Made by a program: the position numbers and the translations under genes. DNA of 64,000 nt from a virus: IMG/VR virus record IMGVR_UViG_3300024308_000302, positions 62,001-126,000 of that record; one strand, given 5' to 3'. The notes below the pieces were generated by a model that was not told the DNA's origin, did no database searches, and worked only from the letters and a program-made list of their open reading frames with translations. Below, in pieces: positions 4,175-60,403 of this stretch (its first letter is position 1; each line of letters starts with the position of its first letter).

Positions 4175-4193
4175 ACGCTGGATTAACCAGCGT
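4175..4193 (-). terminator. Rho-independent terminator of rnlA
   Basis: ACGCTGG/CCAGCGT hairpin with the rnlA TAA stop in its loop, then a T-run. Confidence 0.85.
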
Positions 4194-5316
4194 CTTCGGT
4201 AGTCACACCAAGTGCTCCAAGGTCTACTTCGTCTAAAGACCAGTCAGACAAGTGATTACGAGAATAGAAAGTCAAGTAATCGTTTTTGAAGCCTCGAACC
4301 GCATTCATCACAAAAGAGAACTGTGGATGACCTTTCAGAGCAATTGCAACATCTTTGATAGGTTGGCCAACAAATTGCTTAGCAATTTCGTGGACTTCTT
4401 TATCAAGGTTTTCAATATGAGCCTTGATGCTATCATTGATATGATGAATGGTAGTCAAATCTGCTTCTGGTGCGTTCAATGCTAAGTAAGCAATATAATC
4501 ATCAAGTTTCTCTTCGACAACCAGTCGGGCAATGTCACGCTGACGAACAAAGGTAACAGCATGGTGCAATTCCATATACCATTTGGTTTTGATTTTAACC
4601 ATTTCACCATTCGCAAATTGAATTACATAACCTTCAATACCTTGAACAGTATTCAGCGACTTGATAAGGCTTGGCAAATCATAACCAACACCAAACAGCG
4701 GCTTGTTAACTGGAATATCAAACTTTGCAGCCAAAATTTCTTTTTCAACTGGCATGAGATATTCACCAGTGATATTGTCACGAACATGAAGCAAAGTCAT
4801 GTTTTCTTCGTCATATCGCAGAACAATACGATGGCTTGGCGAAGTGAACTCGAAAATAGGCGAAAGATTTGCCATCGAGCAATATTTAGTGAAATCGTAG
4901 TATTTCTGGTTTTTAGCAACAAACCCTTCTGATGCAACAGCAACATCAGATTTGAACGATTTTTTCGATTTCGCAAAGAACTGACCGTTCAGGAAACCAG
5001 CCGAAATCATCGAGCCGTCCATTTTGTCAAAACCCGCAACCATCGTATCCCAATTCAATACAGCGGGTTGAACTTCTGCACGCTCTGCAAGGTTGAAGAA
5101 TTTGTGCAGTGGGCGGGAAAGAATTTTGCCATCAGCATCAAAAGCGATACCACGGGCTTCTTTTTCCATCGGAGTGGTGAAGGACTCACCATTGCTGATA
5201 TTGTAGCAAATGACAGTAGCGTCATTCGATTGTTTGTTGATGCCAATGTATTCCTTATGTTGAACATGAGGAAGCATATCGTTGATGGTTTCGATACGTG
5301 GGAAGATACTGGGCAT
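4183..5316 (-). CDS. rnlA: T4 Rnl1-type RNA ligase
   Basis: ATP-dependent ligase joining 5'-phosphate and 3'-OH RNA ends; in T4, Rnl1 with Pnkp restores tRNAs cut by host anticodon nucleases. The nucleotidyltransferase motif I is K98-M-D-G-S102. Further Rnl1-like blocks are ARGIAFD and SRPLHKFFNL before it, FEFTSPSHRIV (motif III region) and EGYVIQF...VKIKTKWY (motifs IV-V). Length 377 aa versus 374 in T4, so it looks full-length. GTGAG precedes the start. The candidate 5'/3' end-healing partner is the kinase-like gene at 22255-22686, not adjacent. Confidence 0.93.
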   Translation of the reverse strand: MPSIFPRIETINDMLPHVQHKEYIGINKQSNDATVICYNISNGESFTTPMEKEARGIAFDADGKILSRPLHKFFNLAERAEVQPAVLNWDTMVAGFDKMDGSMISAGFLNGQFFAKSKKSFKSDVAVASEGFVAKNQKYYDFTKYCSMANLSPIFEFTSPSHRIVLRYDEENMTLLHVRDNITGEYLMPVEKEILAAKFDIPVNKPLFGVGYDLPSLIKSLNTVQGIEGYVIQFANGEMVKIKTKWYMELHHAVTFVRQRDIARLVVEEKLDDYIAYLALNAPEADLTTIHHINDSIKAHIENLDKEVHEIAKQFVGQPIKDVAIALKGHPQFSFVMNAVRGFKNDYLTFYSRNHLSDWSLDEVDLGALGVTTEDAG

Positions 5317-50181: not shown

Positions 50182-50202
50182 CCCCATAGCTAAAGCAAGG
50201 AG
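50182..50202 (-). repeat. IS605-type right-end palindrome
   Basis: Imperfect hairpin on the minus strand, CTCCTTGC-TTTA-GCTATGGGG, with one extra T; overlaps the tnpB stop. Confidence 0.6.
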
Positions 50203-51260
50203 ATTCCTTCCGCAAGACGGCCATGCCCGACCGCAAGAATGTTAATGGCTGCGTTTACATCTCGTTGATGTATGCCACCGCATACATCACATTTCCATTC
50301 TCTTATTCGCAGCCCATCTAATCCTTTCGGCCCAGTTAAAGACTTACAAAGATGACAGGTGCGGGTTGTGTCTCTTTCGTCAACATTATTATCTAGTAGT
50401 ATGCCTGCGTTATCGCATTTATTTTTCAGCATACTTCTAATCAGGCCAAAGCCTGCATCTAATGTTGACTTTCCTCTTTTTGCTTTGAGCATTTTCTTAA
50501 TGCTCAAATCTCCAACATAAATCTCACTAAAATTTTTGACTAAATTTGTAGTGAATTTATGTAGAGAGTCTTTTCTAATATTAGCAATTTTAGCATGAAT
50601 ATTACGAACTCTTTTTTTATTATTAGCTCTTTGTTGAACTTTTAATTGTTTTTCATATTGTCTATAAACTTGATTATATTTAGTTTCACTTCCATCACTA
50701 GCCGTAGCAGAAGCTTTGAACCCAAGATCAACACCAACAGCCCCTTGACCAGACGACAATACTCTTGGTACTTCAACAACAACATTGAAGTACCAACGAC
50801 CACGAGCATCTTCATTAAAAGAAGCATTTTTAAATTCGTATTTTGACAGTTCATAACTGTCAAATACTGAATAATATTGCTTATTGAAATAAACTTGACC
50901 ATTCACCCAAGAAGCTGCTTTTGAGTTTATTGGAATCCAACCAAGACTTCTTCTTGATCCAAATGTTTTTCGCCATTTGAGTTTTTGTTTTTTAAACTGT
51001 TTTCTTCGAGTAGCATATTCTTTACAAATGGATTGAATGGTTTGACTATGCAAACCAAGTTCTTTAGCAGAACCATTGGTATATTTTTGCAGATCATAAT
51101 TTGAAAGAAACTTTTTATGTTCAACTATGTTTCTATGACTTAATTCATTAAGATAATTCCAAACAAAATTAACGTTCTTAGCCATCTGGCAAAGAACGTT
51201 TTTATGTTTATCTTTAACTCTAACTTTTAGAGTTTTTGTTGTATATTCGGAATTATTCAT
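50190..51260 (-). CDS. tnpB: TnpB (IS605 OrfB) RNA-guided nuclease
   Basis: 356 aa. RuvC-I VDLGFKASATASDG carries the first catalytic Asp; RuvC-II region reads IYVGDLSIKKM where many TnpBs have a catalytic Glu before DL (here Gly); zinc finger CHLC...CDVC; RuvC-III HQRDVNAAINIL with the last Asp. TnpB cuts DNA near its own IS ends using an RNA made from the right end. Own promoter TTGACT-17-TATAAT at 51268-51296. Gly in place of Glu may lower activity; shifted catalytic residues are also possible. Confidence 0.85.
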   Translation of the reverse strand: MNNSEYTTKTLKVRVKDKHKNVLCQMAKNVNFVWNYLNELSHRNIVEHKKFLSNYDLQKYTNGSAKELGLHSQTIQSICKEYATRRKQFKKQKLKWRKTFGSRRSLGWIPINSKAASWVNGQVYFNKQYYSVFDSYELSKYEFKNASFNEDARGRWYFNVVVEVPRVLSSGQGAVGVDLGFKASATASDGSETKYNQVYRQYEKQLKVQQRANNKKRVRNIHAKIANIRKDSLHKFTTNLVKNFSEIYVGDLSIKKMLKAKRGKSTLDAGFGLIRSMLKNKCDNAGILLDNNVDERDTTRTCHLCKSLTGPKGLDGLRIREWKCDVCGGIHQRDVNAAINILAVGHGRLAEGISLL

Positions 51261-52088: not shown

Positions 52089-52157
52089 AATAAACTCCAA
52101 ATAAATTAGCCTTCAAATTGAATGGATTATAACATAAAAAAGAAAAATTGACAACAA

Positions 52158-52415
52158 AAAAGCCTACTAGATCACTCTAATAGGCTTCTTTGTAAAGGCT
52201 TTCCACCTTATACGGAAGGTTTGGTGCGTATATGCCCACACAGGTCACGAACTGTTGCCAGTCTGGTAGCCACTTCACTATTGAACCAATGTCTTAACCA
52301 TAAAGGGATACGGGCACTGATTCTCAATATGTCACAGTTAGAACTATACTGCAGCACCTTTGTTTCAAGTTCATATAGGCCATCGAGACAGCCATTCACA
52401 AAGGTTAATACAAAT
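52158..52415 (-). ncRNA. 3' segment of RNA cluster, structured
   Basis: Region from the end of the Leu/Ser-like tRNA element to the terminator. Perfect stem CCTTTGT/ACAAAGG, ACTG-GCAA-CAGT (GNRA loop), and CAGT/ACTG. An uninterrupted frame runs through it (about 70 codons) but has no start with a ribosome site; I favour RNA. Part of the long transcript from 53108. Confidence 0.45.
52159..52186 (-). terminator. Terminator of RNA cluster
   Basis: AAGCCTA/TAGGCTT hairpin followed by six T on the minus strand. Confidence 0.8.
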
Positions 52416-52510
52416 TGGCAGGCTGGTCTGGCCTCGAACCAGAAACTTCCACTCACTCGTGGTGTTTTACCAGAGATCCTATGGCGGATCTATTTTAAAC
52501 TACTCAACCT
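52416..52510 (-). tRNA. tRNA-like element with long variable arm, aberrant middle
   Basis: T-arm TCTGG-TTCGAGG-CCAGA and acceptor AGGTTGA/CCAGCCT (6 of 7 pairs) with encoded CCA are good. The D-arm region has only 12 nt and the apparent anticodon hairpin AGATCC/GGATCT has loop GCCATA with no U33. A CCAC/GTGG hairpin fits a class II variable arm. Not a canonical tRNA. Confidence 0.4.
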
Positions 52511-52545
52511 ATTAAATCATAAGACCTACACTATCAAGCAAAAAC

Positions 52546-52651
52546 TGGTGGAAGCGGAAGGATTCGAACCTCCGTGCGGCAAGGTATAGGTTGGTAACAC
52601 CACCCCTCCGCTTAGTTACCTCAGAGTTAAGCCAGACTACTCTACACTTCC
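52546..52651 (-). tRNA. tRNA-Ser-like element, 106 nt, irregular anticodon arm
   Basis: Acceptor GGAAGTG/CGCTTCC, D-stem GAGT/ACTC, T-arm GGAGG-TTCGAAT-CCTTC and CCA are sound and resemble tRNA-Ser ends. Between D-stem and T-arm lie 50 nt; the best anticodon stem GGTAAC/GTTACC encloses 16 nt rather than seven, and a GCGG/CCGC hairpin competes. So either an insertion-bearing tRNA or a tRNA-derived decoy. Confidence 0.45.
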
Positions 52652-52679
52652 ATAATTTGTACAGGGCTGGTGGTTAAGC

Positions 52680-52780
52680 TTGGTTTACCTGTGTGACCAA
52701 TTTGAATGGAAGTGTTCCAATTACACTTGCATTCACCACTACTGATCTGGCATAAGCCATTTCTATAAGCAAATATGCAT
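52680..52780 (-). ncRNA. Hairpins in RNA cluster, remnant tRNA-like
   Basis: AAGTGT-AATTGGA-ACACTT gives an anticodon-like 7-nt loop, followed by a short CCA-TTCAAAT-TGG loop like a degenerate T-arm. No acceptor stem found. Too weak to call a tRNA. Confidence 0.3.
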
Positions 52781-52791
52781 ATCTGCTAAAC

Positions 52792-52869
52792 TGGTTGCGG
52801 GAGCAGGATTTGAACCTGCGATCTCCAGCCAATGAAGCTGGTGAGTTAACCGGACTACTCCATCCCGCG
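52792..52869 (-). tRNA. tRNA-Met (CAT), initiator-type features
   Basis: 78 nt with encoded CCA and full cloverleaf: acceptor CGCGGGA/TCCCGCA with an unpaired C1-A72, D-stem GAGT/ACTC (A11-U24), anticodon stem CCAGC/GCTGG with loop TTCATTG (CAT), T-arm GCAGG-TTCAAAT-CCTGC. C1-A72 mismatch and A11-U24 are hallmarks of bacterial initiator tRNA; the three G-C pairs of the anticodon stem are not conserved. The strongest tRNA of the window. Confidence 0.85.
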
Positions 52870-52884
52870 TCAAATTTGTTCGCA

Positions 52885-52927
52885 GCACTAAGCCACTTGA
52901 CCTTCGCCCCTAACCTACGCTTGGCCC
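52885..52927 (-). ncRNA. Repeated RNA motif, copy b
   Basis: CCAAGCGT...GGGGCG...GGTCA...GTGGC, closely like the element at 53027-53066; sits just 5' of the initiator-type tRNA. Confidence 0.4.
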
Positions 52928-52962
52928 GGATGAACCTGATGTTCATCTCCCGTATAAAAAAG

Positions 52963-52985
52963 AGCCGGTTCACCCAACCGTTTTA
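52963..52985. terminator. Bidirectional terminator-like hairpin inside cluster
   Basis: CGGTT-GGGTG-AACCG with T-rich flanks on both sides; minus-strand flank GCTCTTTTTT. May separate two parts of the RNA cluster or be a read-through attenuator. Confidence 0.6.
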
Positions 52986-53026
52986 TTTAGACATGTTACT
53001 TATCATCTAAATCTCTTGAAAACCTT

Positions 53027-53066
53027 GTGCCACTGGCACTGACCAACGCCCCGTCCACGCTTGGTC
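53027..53066 (-). ncRNA. Repeated RNA motif, copy a
   Basis: GACCAA/TTGGTC stem, then GTGCC-AGT-GGCAC hairpin; preceded by GTAGAG/CTCTAC. Shared with copy b: CCAAGCGT, GGGGCG, GGTCA, GTGGC. Confidence 0.4.
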
Positions 53067-53114
53067 TATTGTAGAGCCTTTATTTCTCTACCCCTTGTTC
53101 GTTTCAATGAGATA

Positions 53115-53143
53115 AGTATAGCAAAATCCAATCTTCATGTCAA
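53115..53143 (-). promoter_or_regulatory. Strong promoter of RNA cluster
   Basis: -35 TTGACA, 17-nt spacer, -10 TATACT preceded by TTTTGC. Confidence 0.8.
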
Positions 53144-53197: not shown

Positions 53198-54352
53198 TTA
53201 TCGATAATGATCTAGAACATCGATTAACAAACTGAAATCACCCCTCAGATTCCCTGAATGGTCAGAATGAAGGTTGAACCCACGAAGTGAATCATAGACC
53301 AGACCATCATCATCATTAAAGTTATCTAAATGATATTGAGACGATTTTACATAACCATAATGTTCTATCATAACTGGATAGCTTTTAGGACCATAATCAC
53401 GACCAATATAGTATTGAACCATTTCCAAATAATTAACGCAGGAATCAATCATTTCTGAATAGTAGAAATCATCTGGCGATGCCTTTACTTCATGGGCTGC
53501 TGTCCAAACTTTATAACGACCAGTAGATTTTTCAAAAACATAAGCATAAAGTGTATTTTGGCTCCTTTGAGACATTAACAAATGGGTTTCTGTTTCAGTC
53601 AAAAACGCATAGTTGTCCATGTCATTAAAAGCAAACTGTTTAACAGATGTTGCTTTTTTCTTTTTAAGCAGTTTTTTCCATCCATTAAACATAGTTTCCA
53701 GATCTTTTTGAGATCCATCAACCATTTGAAAACTTTCAACTTTATTTCTTTCAATGAATTCAAGTTGTTCAGCCGTGAACGCTTCTGGAAAATGATTGCA
53801 CAGTTCAATAAAATCTTTTGAAATGTAGGCAACAGGATATGCGTTGCTAAGACGAACAATGCAATATTCTGAAAATTCATTGCTGCTATATCGATCTTTG
53901 TTTTTAAATTGCATAAAGTCTTGTGCAGGATACAGACTGGTCAGTTTAATAAACTTTTCATGGATAACTTCAACATCATGCACAATTGGTTCTTTAAATT
54001 TATCAGGTAATGCAGAGAAATCAGGAGCTTTATATTTCGAATAAACTGTATACTGATCATATTTTTGTTTAACATGGTAACGAAAACCATCAAGATGAAA
54101 AACAATAGAATTATGAACATTATTAACATTGTTCAAACTTTGGAGTGTAATCTGCTCCATCAAGTCCAATTGCTCTGGAGTAGCAGTTTTATCAAGAATG
54201 GCTCGCATAAGCTCCATCGTCATTTCAACACGGTGAGCACGCAAGTGATGTTCTTTACTTTCAATCAGGCTTTGATCAAAACGGTCTGAAAAAAGATAAT
54301 CAGTGAGTGTATTTACAATAGAAACAACTTCTTGGTTTGAATTGTTGCTCAT
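53198..54352 (-). CDS. Hypothetical protein, 384 aa
   Basis: Large soluble protein; its ATG overlaps the preceding gene's TAA by one nt. N-terminal helices to about residue 80, then a beta-rich region; several Tyr-rich blocks (QYHLDNFNDDDGLVYD). No family recognised. Confidence 0.75.
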   Translation of the reverse strand: MSNNSNQEVVSIVNTLTDYLFSDRFDQSLIESKEHHLRAHRVEMTMELMRAILDKTATPEQLDLMEQITLQSLNNVNNVHNSIVFHLDGFRYHVKQKYDQYTVYSKYKAPDFSALPDKFKEPIVHDVEVIHEKFIKLTSLYPAQDFMQFKNKDRYSSNEFSEYCIVRLSNAYPVAYISKDFIELCNHFPEAFTAEQLEFIERNKVESFQMVDGSQKDLETMFNGWKKLLKKKKATSVKQFAFNDMDNYAFLTETETHLLMSQRSQNTLYAYVFEKSTGRYKVWTAAHEVKASPDDFYYSEMIDSCVNYLEMVQYYIGRDYGPKSYPVMIEHYGYVKSSQYHLDNFNDDDGLVYDSLRGFNLHSDHSGNLRGDFSLLIDVLDHYR

Positions 54353-58867: not shown

Positions 58868-60403
58868 TTATTTAATACAACCAACTTCACAACTGTATGA
58901 AGCACCTTGCGTCTCAGAAGATATATACCAGTGCCCATTTAAGTTTTTATAGACCTTACAACCAGTAGGACCAGCACCAGAACCAATATATAGACCAGTT
59001 AAAAAACAACCAGAATACTGTCCAAGAGATCGTATAACAGGAGCAGTTGTTCCAGAATCTGAGCCACCACCAGCATAAGTACCCATAGAAATTAAATTAG
59101 ATCCAGAATTATTACTCCATATACCACTTATACAAGATAAAACACCACCTGTTGAATTTCTCGCAAGAGAACCATTAGGTGAACATGAACGACCTTCAAC
59201 CTCAACTTTAGTAAGATTGATATTGTTATCAAATTGAGCAGTACCTCTTGTATGTAAAGTACCATCCATAGATGTATTACCATTAACAACTAAATCATTT
59301 TTAACTGTCAAATAATTAGTATTTACAGCATTTGAAAATATAGTATCAGTATAAAGTTTATTGATCAAACCTTTCTGAGCAGATATGTTGTCAACTACTT
59401 GGTAGGCTACAGTAGATCCATTGTCGTCCATAGAGAATATTCCACATGGAGCAGTCTGAGCAGAATCAACCAATCCATCATCAGTGTTCTTATAAATAGG
59501 GCATAATTTATCAAGCATTATTCTTGAACTGATAGAAGAGTTTGTAACAACATCAACAGCAACAGGTGCTCCTGTCGTATTTTGAATGCCAATACCACAG
59601 TCAACATTAGAAGAGTTCCAAGAACCTGTTACTGTATCTTGTATCCATTTTAAACAAAGAAGTTTATCATTATCTTTAGTTGATTTAAACGTAACTGATG
59701 AACCAATCATAGAATTTGTGCCATCAACTCTTAAATGTTCATTACCACCCTCTCTATCATAAGTAGCAACTAACACACAATTGTTTTTCAAAGCCAAACA
59801 TTCTTTATTAGTTATTTTAGAATTTGTATCGGATGTTGAGGCAAAATAGAATTGATGACCACCAGTAATATTAAGAGAGTCATTTGCTTTTGCTGTCATA
59901 ATTGCTTTGTTATAATATCTGAAATTTTGAGAAAATACTTGTTGATTCTTTGCTTGGAATGTAACTTTGAAGTTCTTTATAAAACCTTCTGCATCTGGTG
60001 TTATCTTTGCCTTAATGTCAAAATTATAAGGTGATTTTGACCAGAAGTTACAAGGAATTAATTGTGTTGATTTTTCTGAGTCCAAAACAGGAACCCAGTT
60101 TTTTGCTCCACCACATGAAGATTGTTGTGCGATAAACTCTGTGCTGAGCATAGAAAGAATAGCATTAGAGCCAACCCATTCAGTGCCATTTTTAAAGTTA
60201 TTGATATCTAATCCATCTACATGAATTCTTTTATCAAATGCCGTAACAATTGAAACAATGTCTTTACCAAATATTAGTGCTTGTTCTTCACGCTGTCTTT
60301 CTAAGTACCAATAAAGAATACCCACAACGATTATCATGATTATACTAAGTGAAATGAGAGTTTCCAGAAGTGTTAAACCATCAGTTTTTTTTATAGATTG
60401 CAT
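58868..60403 (-). CDS. pilV: Type IV prepilin with PilV/shufflon-type tail
   Basis: N-terminus MQSIKKTDG|LTLLETLISLSIIM is a type IV prepilin: cleavage after G9, Glu at +5, long hydrophobic helix. The segment LTVKNDLVVNGNTSM... leads to CSPNGSLARNSTGGVLSC at residues 407-424, the landmark of PilV shufflon constant regions (IncI plasmids), followed by a short Gly-rich tail ending CEVGCIK. PilV is the tip adhesin of type IVb pili. No other pil genes or recombinase seen here. Finding it alone in a phage-like window is unusual. Confidence 0.8.
   Translation of the reverse strand: MQSIKKTDGLTLLETLISLSIIMIIVVGILYWYLERQREEQALIFGKDIVSIVTAFDKRIHVDGLDINNFKNGTEWVGSNAILSMLSTEFIAQQSSCGGAKNWVPVLDSEKSTQLIPCNFWSKSPYNFDIKAKITPDAEGFIKNFKVTFQAKNQQVFSQNFRYYNKAIMTAKANDSLNITGGHQFYFASTSDTNSKITNKECLALKNNCVLVATYDREGGNEHLRVDGTNSMIGSSVTFKSTKDNDKLLCLKWIQDTVTGSWNSSNVDCGIGIQNTTGAPVAVDVVTNSSISSRIMLDKLCPIYKNTDDGLVDSAQTAPCGIFSMDDNGSTVAYQVVDNISAQKGLINKLYTDTIFSNAVNTNYLTVKNDLVVNGNTSMDGTLHTRGTAQFDNNINLTKVEVEGRSCSPNGSLARNSTGGVLSCISGIWSNNSGSNLISMGTYAGGGSDSGTTAPVIRSLGQYSGCFLTGLYIGSGAGPTGCKVYKNLNGHWYISSETQGASYSCEVGCIK

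Follow-up and report, generated by a model that had tools for sequence, protein, structure and literature searches.

A phage tRNA-island transcript is a mosaic of structured RNA modules, one of which appears to belong to an undescribed RNA family of bacterial viruses

What is made from a phage transcription unit that encloses no credible gene? The window analysed here, a stretch of 64,000 nucleotides (G000:C1:62001-126000) taken from a 290,157-base virus record (G000), holds such a unit of about 0.95 kb on its minus strand, bounded by the promoter and the terminator given in Table 1. The first-pass annotation had described a strong promoter and a terminator at this distance with no credible gene between them. 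We located both sites, and the open reading frames inside reach at most 122 aa and have no match in PHROGs or Pfam; the unit is devoid of a credible gene. The 957-nt transcript folds to -319.6 kcal/mol, against -275.9 kcal/mol for dinucleotide shuffles (z = -5.8). Standard tools do not read all its parts as ordinary tRNAs: ARAGORN and Rfam call a single tRNA-Met(CAU), leaving both copies of the repeat and the structured segment at the 3' end beyond tRNA genes, as had been claimed, and the other Rfam matches (snoRNA, miRNA, CyaR, tmRNA) are weak and far under the gathering scores. Judged by its sequence, the bulk of the transcript is non-tRNA, a mosaic of structured RNA modules. The stretch may be described as a phage tRNA-island operon, in which a single minus-strand promoter would give a polycistronic non-coding precursor with the order X, Y, X, tRNA-Met, tRNA-like 1, tRNA-like 2, B, C and terminator. 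Comparison with other loci shows X, Y, B and C to be separate structured modules that recur elsewhere, with their pairs kept by compensatory changes.

Table 1. Features of the transcription unit, in window coordinates and in transcript order.
Feature	Position	Strand	Details or basis
Promoter, TTGACA-17-TATACT with TG ahead of the second hexamer	53115..53143	-	11/12 matches
Module X copy 1, transcript 5' end	53041..53105	-	hairpins GTAGAG/CTCTAC and GACCAA/TTGGTC around AGCGTGGACGGGGCG
Module Y, three-way junction	52960..53017	-	AAGAG/CTCTT; ATTTAGA/TCTAAAT; CGGTT-GGGTG-AACCG
Module X copy 2	52899..52953	-	95% copy at G000:129842-129954
tRNA-Met(CAU), partly initiator-type	52792..52869	-	ARAGORN, Rfam
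Spacer hairpin TGAATGGAAGTGT/ACACTTGCATTCA	52703..52735	-	relatives looked for, none found
tRNA-like 1: 7-bp acceptor, D arm, T arm, about 27 nt extra middle part	52546..52651	-	sequence
tRNA-like 2: acceptor and T arm, abnormal middle, GCCA end	52416..52510	-	sequence
Module B, CCTTTGT/ACAAAGG hairpin and second hairpin	52335..52405	-	83% copy at G000:126651-126726
Module C, member of a widespread phage RNA family	52195..52328	-	P1, P2 and P3 helices
Module C helices	P1 52323-52315/52291-52283; P2 52276-52273/52218-52215; P3 52209-52206/52198-52195	-	
Intrinsic terminator	52154..52193	-	18 pairs and T run

Some neighbours of the unit deserve mention in their own right. A promoter-like cassette past the terminator (window 52126-52164) resembles many sites of the record, e.g. 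G000:63403-63441 (90%), and is apparently a repeated phage promoter. The array adjoins a gene for a TnpB-type IS605 protein (OrfB_IS605, with a Cas12f1-like TNB domain, window 50190-51260), and a gene of similar look adjoins module C in contig L032. Further away, at window 58868-60403, this phage record encodes a type IV pilin-like protein, in which an N-terminal methylation motif is combined with a shufflon N-terminal domain.

The two motif copies on which the first-pass annotation had dwelt (CCAAGCGT, GGGGCG and GGTCA in the same order, at 53040-53064 and 52898-52924 on the minus strand) survive alignment, and the match reaches other phages with compensatory changes. The protein encoded beside the array (53198-54352) led to five related phage records (G001-G005). 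The array is absent beside this gene in the relatives read at that place, and X and Y sit elsewhere in the related records, within other tRNA-containing arrays. The block 52880-52993, which comprises the second motif copy and the hairpin described as terminator-like, is the part matched at 95% by G000:129842-129954, in another tRNA cluster. Module X consists of two hairpins, of which HpB keeps AGCG..GGG(G)C despite unrelated stems (GACCAA/UUGGUC, GUGAC/GUCAC, GAUAGC/GCUAUC, AAUGG/CCAUU), and the shape of copy 1 recurs on unrelated stems in G000, G001 and G003-G005. Module Y has a closing helix, a helix H2, the sequence UAAAA and a helix H3 with the loop RGGYG. Its three helices are kept in the 11 tabulated copies (e.g. 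CGGUU/AACCG becomes CGCUU/AAGCG), and individual positions show as many as five types of pair. Because H2 of Y and the X copies of the window came out misaligned in MAFFT, the X and Y helices were tabulated by hand; those of P2 in module C were treated likewise, and such tables are weaker than an automatic test. The supposed internal bidirectional terminator is instead the H3 arm of this conserved junction. We rejected a terminator role for the hairpin at 52966-52980: the long U run is found in the window copy only, and since most other copies lack one, H3 is not primarily a terminator.

How far do these two modules extend? The pattern CCAAGCGTN{2,10}GGGGCGNNGGTCA gave two chance matches only in viral contigs, both in coding-type DNA (L025, L026), so that a search of this stringency limits the motif to the present phage group. 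The pattern of the Y hairpin retrieved, from the viral contigs, the relatives and one chance match (L072), and a distant blastn search of X-Y against phages gave nothing convincing. By pattern searches and blastn, neither X nor Y was found beyond this phage group. Within the group, promoter-like sequence directly precedes X in several places: in the window, at G000:163182, and in units of G001, G003, G004 and G005. The put antitermination RNA of phage HK022 consists of a pair of neighbouring hairpins where a phage transcript begins, and X resembles it in this general layout. By analogy, X might be a promoter-proximal antitermination RNA letting polymerase cross untranslated arrays. We regard this as rather unlikely, given that X, unlike put in this comparison, is also found inside arrays (window copy 2; G000:129883). 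More generally, X at the 5' end of such transcripts may aid polymerase read-through of untranslated arrays, or shield the 5' end.

The tRNA-Met had been called a clean initiator-type tRNA, which holds in part. It has the C1xA72 mismatch and the A11-U24 pair of initiator tRNA-fMet, but its anticodon stem (CCAGC/GCTGG) lacks the three G-C pairs 29-31:39-41 and it is therefore only partly initiator-type. The record has several CAU tRNAs, this one and those at L010:6236-6312 and L012:11265-11343, with initiator-like ends in at least the first two. Downstream of it, the two elements described as having normal acceptor and T arms around abnormal middles were both found. Might they work as tRNAs, with a small intron or an unusual arm, and not as RNA punctuation? 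The acceptor and T arm are intact in both, and ARAGORN reads tRNA-like 1 as tRNA-Gly(ACC) with a 23-nt intron, yet it does so only when forced to place an intron of 10-200 nt. With default settings neither ARAGORN nor Rfam (RF00005) calls either element, and T-arm RNAs with abnormal middles have a precedent in T4 rnaC. We know of no bacterial splicing route for such tRNA introns. Functional tRNAs are thus an improbable reading of the two elements. The first of them also has a weak match to the Rfam tmRNA model (14.6 bits against a gathering score of 47).

Other tRNA-related features of the material are unusual. A possible permuted tRNA-Leu lies at L010:12400-12480 (G000:132400-132480, minus strand), where a 5' acceptor and D arm (CTGAGGTGGTGGAATTGGTAGACAC) are closely preceded by a T arm and 3' acceptor (GAAGGTTCGAGTCCTTCTCTCAG). 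Two tRNAs have a CUA anticodon of the amber-suppressor type (L019:19840-19914 and L020:849-923; 'Pyl' in ARAGORN), and TAG still terminates 15 of the 250 open reading frames of at least 150 aa in the record carrying them. Two more have unusual anticodon loops ('???' in ARAGORN; L014:15401-15477 and L019:3041-3117). The window also encodes, at 4183-5316, an RNA ligase of the T4 Rnl1 type (96 bits); ligases of this class are known to repair tRNAs.

The core of module B has zero exact matches in viral contigs. The one further copy of the module, in G000, stands just before a tRNA-Asn, and the helix CAGU/ACUG has become CUGU/ACAG there.

The most important part of the observation lies outside the repeated motif, in the 3' segment. 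That this structured segment is more than tRNA genes had been claimed from the letters alone; it turns out to belong to an RNA family present in hundreds of phages. Searched with blastn, the module C segment gave matches of about 25-50 nt in some 240 phage records, most of them where no gene is annotated, and the part common to these matches is GCCCGUAUCCCUNUAUGGUUAAGAC. Matches in 266 phage records span 80% or more of the 235-nt version of Ackermannviridae; carriers of module C in that family include Agtrevirus, Kuttervirus, Limestonevirus, Miltonvirus and Campanilevirus. Other carriers are Schitoviridae (Gamaleyavirus), Acinetobacter phages and many metagenomic phages, and a looser pattern restricted to the loop matched 60 viral contigs. 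Among 84,980 prokaryote species a stricter pattern found a single contig, of 8 kb, in a Flavobacteriaceae MAG, and the 235-nt stretch has no match in plasmids or in 5,426 E. coli genomes. A match in phages of the phAPEC8 type (Phapecoctavirus) was rejected, as it lies inside a CDS and the stem is missing. A covariance model of P1 and the core gave one strong match per record in 19/19 carrier records searched, with scores of 49-69 bits against 16 for the next best match. Rfam holds no match for module C, and text searches, with preprints and most subscription papers outside their scope, retrieved no earlier description. These comparisons support well that module C represents an apparently undescribed RNA family of about 300 bacterial-virus genomes, with one copy per record.

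Is this family held together by structure? Module C includes a hairpin whose covarying 9-bp stem P1 surrounds CCYGNAUCCC-XNUY-UGGUYAAGAC. The window member has the features common to the family, a covarying P1 closed by G-C around CCYGNAUCCCXNUYUGGUYAAGA with X and Y paired, and all nine P1 pairs are formed. We analysed a set of 48 distinct sequences drawn from 36 contigs found by the loop pattern, 7 GenBank phage loci, the window, the MAG contig and 4 other loci; selection by the loop leaves the flanks free. At least seven of the nine flanking pairs are formed in 37 of the 48, against a mean of 6.7 when partners are shuffled. In P1 and the apical part, 181 cells are changed on both sides, compared with 62.6 +/- 6.3 in shuffled and at most 59 in slid alignments; none of 500 shuffles reached 181, although relatedness among sequences inflates such tests. 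In the core CCC-X-N-U-Y-UGG, X and Y, both free in the looser search pattern, are paired in 48/48 sequences (UA 27, GC 19, AU 1, CG 1). Further helices follow: P2 has 46/48 positions paired in a hand table of 12 members including the window, with changes among CUGG/CCAG, CCAG/CUGG, GAAG/CUUC and CCGG/CCGG, and P3 has 98% of cells paired in 10 members including the window, with 15 double changes against 4.1. The two strands of P2 enclose a domain of variable length, and P2 and P3 are not resolved in the Ackermannviridae subgroup. In tetraloops of the CUUG type the first and last bases form a Watson-Crick pair, leaving a 2-nt loop. The apical XNUY of module C, with its X-Y pair, is alike, and in the member at L159 the loop is literally CUUG. 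Unlike such a tetraloop alone, it is flanked by a C-U mismatch and CC/GG within a larger conserved internal loop.

These patterns bear on the simplest reading of the locus, an ordinary tRNA array of decayed tRNAs and non-functional spacers. Odd tRNAs are frequent in phage tRNA arrays, and the tRNA-Gly reading of tRNA-like 1 with its forced intron would fit. Yet decay is contradicted by X, Y, P1, P2 and P3, whose pairs show compensatory changes, and by near-invariant loops in phages with almost no proteins in common. We thus consider an ordinary array highly improbable.

The setting of module C is informative as well. A tRNA called by ARAGORN lies within 3 kb at 24 of the 47 distinct loci, and these tRNAs, 86 in total, share the strand of the module without exception. 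On this sequence evidence the module C family is restricted to phages, has a single copy and follows the tRNAs in strand. Might it act in cis, as a leader, a terminator-linked switch or a processing signal for the adjoining tRNA or gene? In six loci P1 begins 9-14 nt after the end of a tRNA, a terminator comes after the module in the window and in G001-G005, and in L089 a start codon lies about 150 nt downstream of the motif. However, module C occurs at the 5' end, in the middle or at the 3' end of arrays, the genes beside it differ between loci, and it is single-copy although arrays hold many tRNAs. A role in cis therefore seems to us unlikely. In G001-G005 module C has its own terminator and lies about 12 kb from the X-Y arrays, and so gives no sign of a function coupled to theirs. 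No protein was found common to all eleven carriers compared, some of which are fragments in which a shared one could be missed. The phages TCUP2199 and KKP 3715 and the record G000 have almost no proteins in common.

Several other RNAs or candidates were seen around module C. In an Ackermannvirus (L083:1206-1315), the sequence just upstream of it resembles the sRNA STnc100, scoring 33.7 bits where the gathering score is 47. A tmRNA gene (tag ANDNALPMAA; L163:8025-8381) lies about 2 kb or less from the module in a 358-kb phage contig. The module is also surrounded by almost gene-free DNA, 2.3 kb in Gamaleyavirus KKP 3715 (L116:35526-37803) and 1.6 kb in Acinetobacter phage TCUP2199 (L115:31305-32924), which probably holds more unnamed RNAs.

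How does module C compare with the RNAs already described from such islands? The large ornate non-coding RNAs ROOL and GOLLD of phages and prophages are often found near tRNA islands, and the GOLLD linker sometimes contains tRNAs (PMC12286853). Module C resembles them in being a phage RNA that lies near tRNA genes, at about half of its loci. Unlike them, the modules described here are of about 55-220 nt and of another architecture, and the Rfam models of ROOL and GOLLD had no match, by gathering or E-value thresholds, in the window and five carrier loci. A homo-oligomeric RNA cage is a further mark of ROOL and GOLLD. The species 1 and 2 RNAs of T4 (rnaC and rnaD) are small stable RNAs inside a phage tRNA cluster, as our modules would be. 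With its T-arm end and abnormal middle, rnaC looks like tRNA-like 1 and 2, a resemblance for which we claim no homology, and the module C model reached at most 9.6 bits on the T4 region, matching the stem and no core, against 40-69 bits on carriers. Ordinary phage tRNA arrays share with this locus the normal tRNA-Met in the transcript and the strand of module C relative to neighbouring tRNAs, but here most of the transcript is non-tRNA. As the tests available gave no homology to ROOL, GOLLD or the T4 RNAs, module C appears to be a new, unrelated family of the same niche.

What, then, could such a transcript do? We lean, with some reservation, towards a tRNA-island transcript that is processed to release RNAs acting in trans, with a conserved host factor as the target of module C. 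The nucleases by which the host processes tRNAs (RNase P, RNase E/Z) would cut at the tRNAs and tRNA-like units and free stable RNAs. Two observations suggest such an excision: module C often starts at most 15 nt from the end of a mature tRNA, and the tRNA-like units, in which the T and acceptor arms are intact, stand between the modules. Freed module C would then offer its nearly invariant internal loop and the apical hairpin with its 2-nt loop to a conserved host factor, a contact that may help the phage by translation takeover or by protection from a nuclease. Action in trans is suggested by the variable place of the module in the arrays, and by a core that barely changes while few proteins are common to the carriers. 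The partner is more easily sought in the host because no phage protein is common to the eleven carriers. Module C thus probably binds a conserved host factor.

Should the contact be made by base pairing, module C would be an antisense RNA or a decoy for a host RNA, for which its long conserved hairpin loop could serve as a pairing site. But part of this loop is already paired internally, and shuffled loops do just as well in predicted duplexes with E. coli RNAs (16S, 23S, 5S, RNase P RNA, 6S, the tmRNA region and three tRNAs), the best fraction being 0.035 over nine tests. We hold pairing with host RNA to be very unlikely. Starting from a trans-acting module C that contacts a conserved host factor, one might go further and see in it an undescribed phage RNA effector whose invariant core binds a universally conserved host machine, and which spread horizontally among unrelated phages as a stand-alone RNA gene in tRNA islands, without a dedicated phage protein partner. 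We put this forward tentatively, as a possibility that falls somewhat short of even.

Phages with tRNA islands carry structured RNAs, from the species 1 and 2 RNAs of T4 to ROOL and GOLLD. Because no Rfam model covers the family, module C is left blank or labelled as a hypothetical protein in about 300 records. It is compact, single-copy and strongly conserved, and occurs in phages of such common laboratory hosts as Salmonella, E. coli, Dickeya and Acinetobacter. Since some 300 phage genomes carry the family, it seems to serve some purpose of value to infection.
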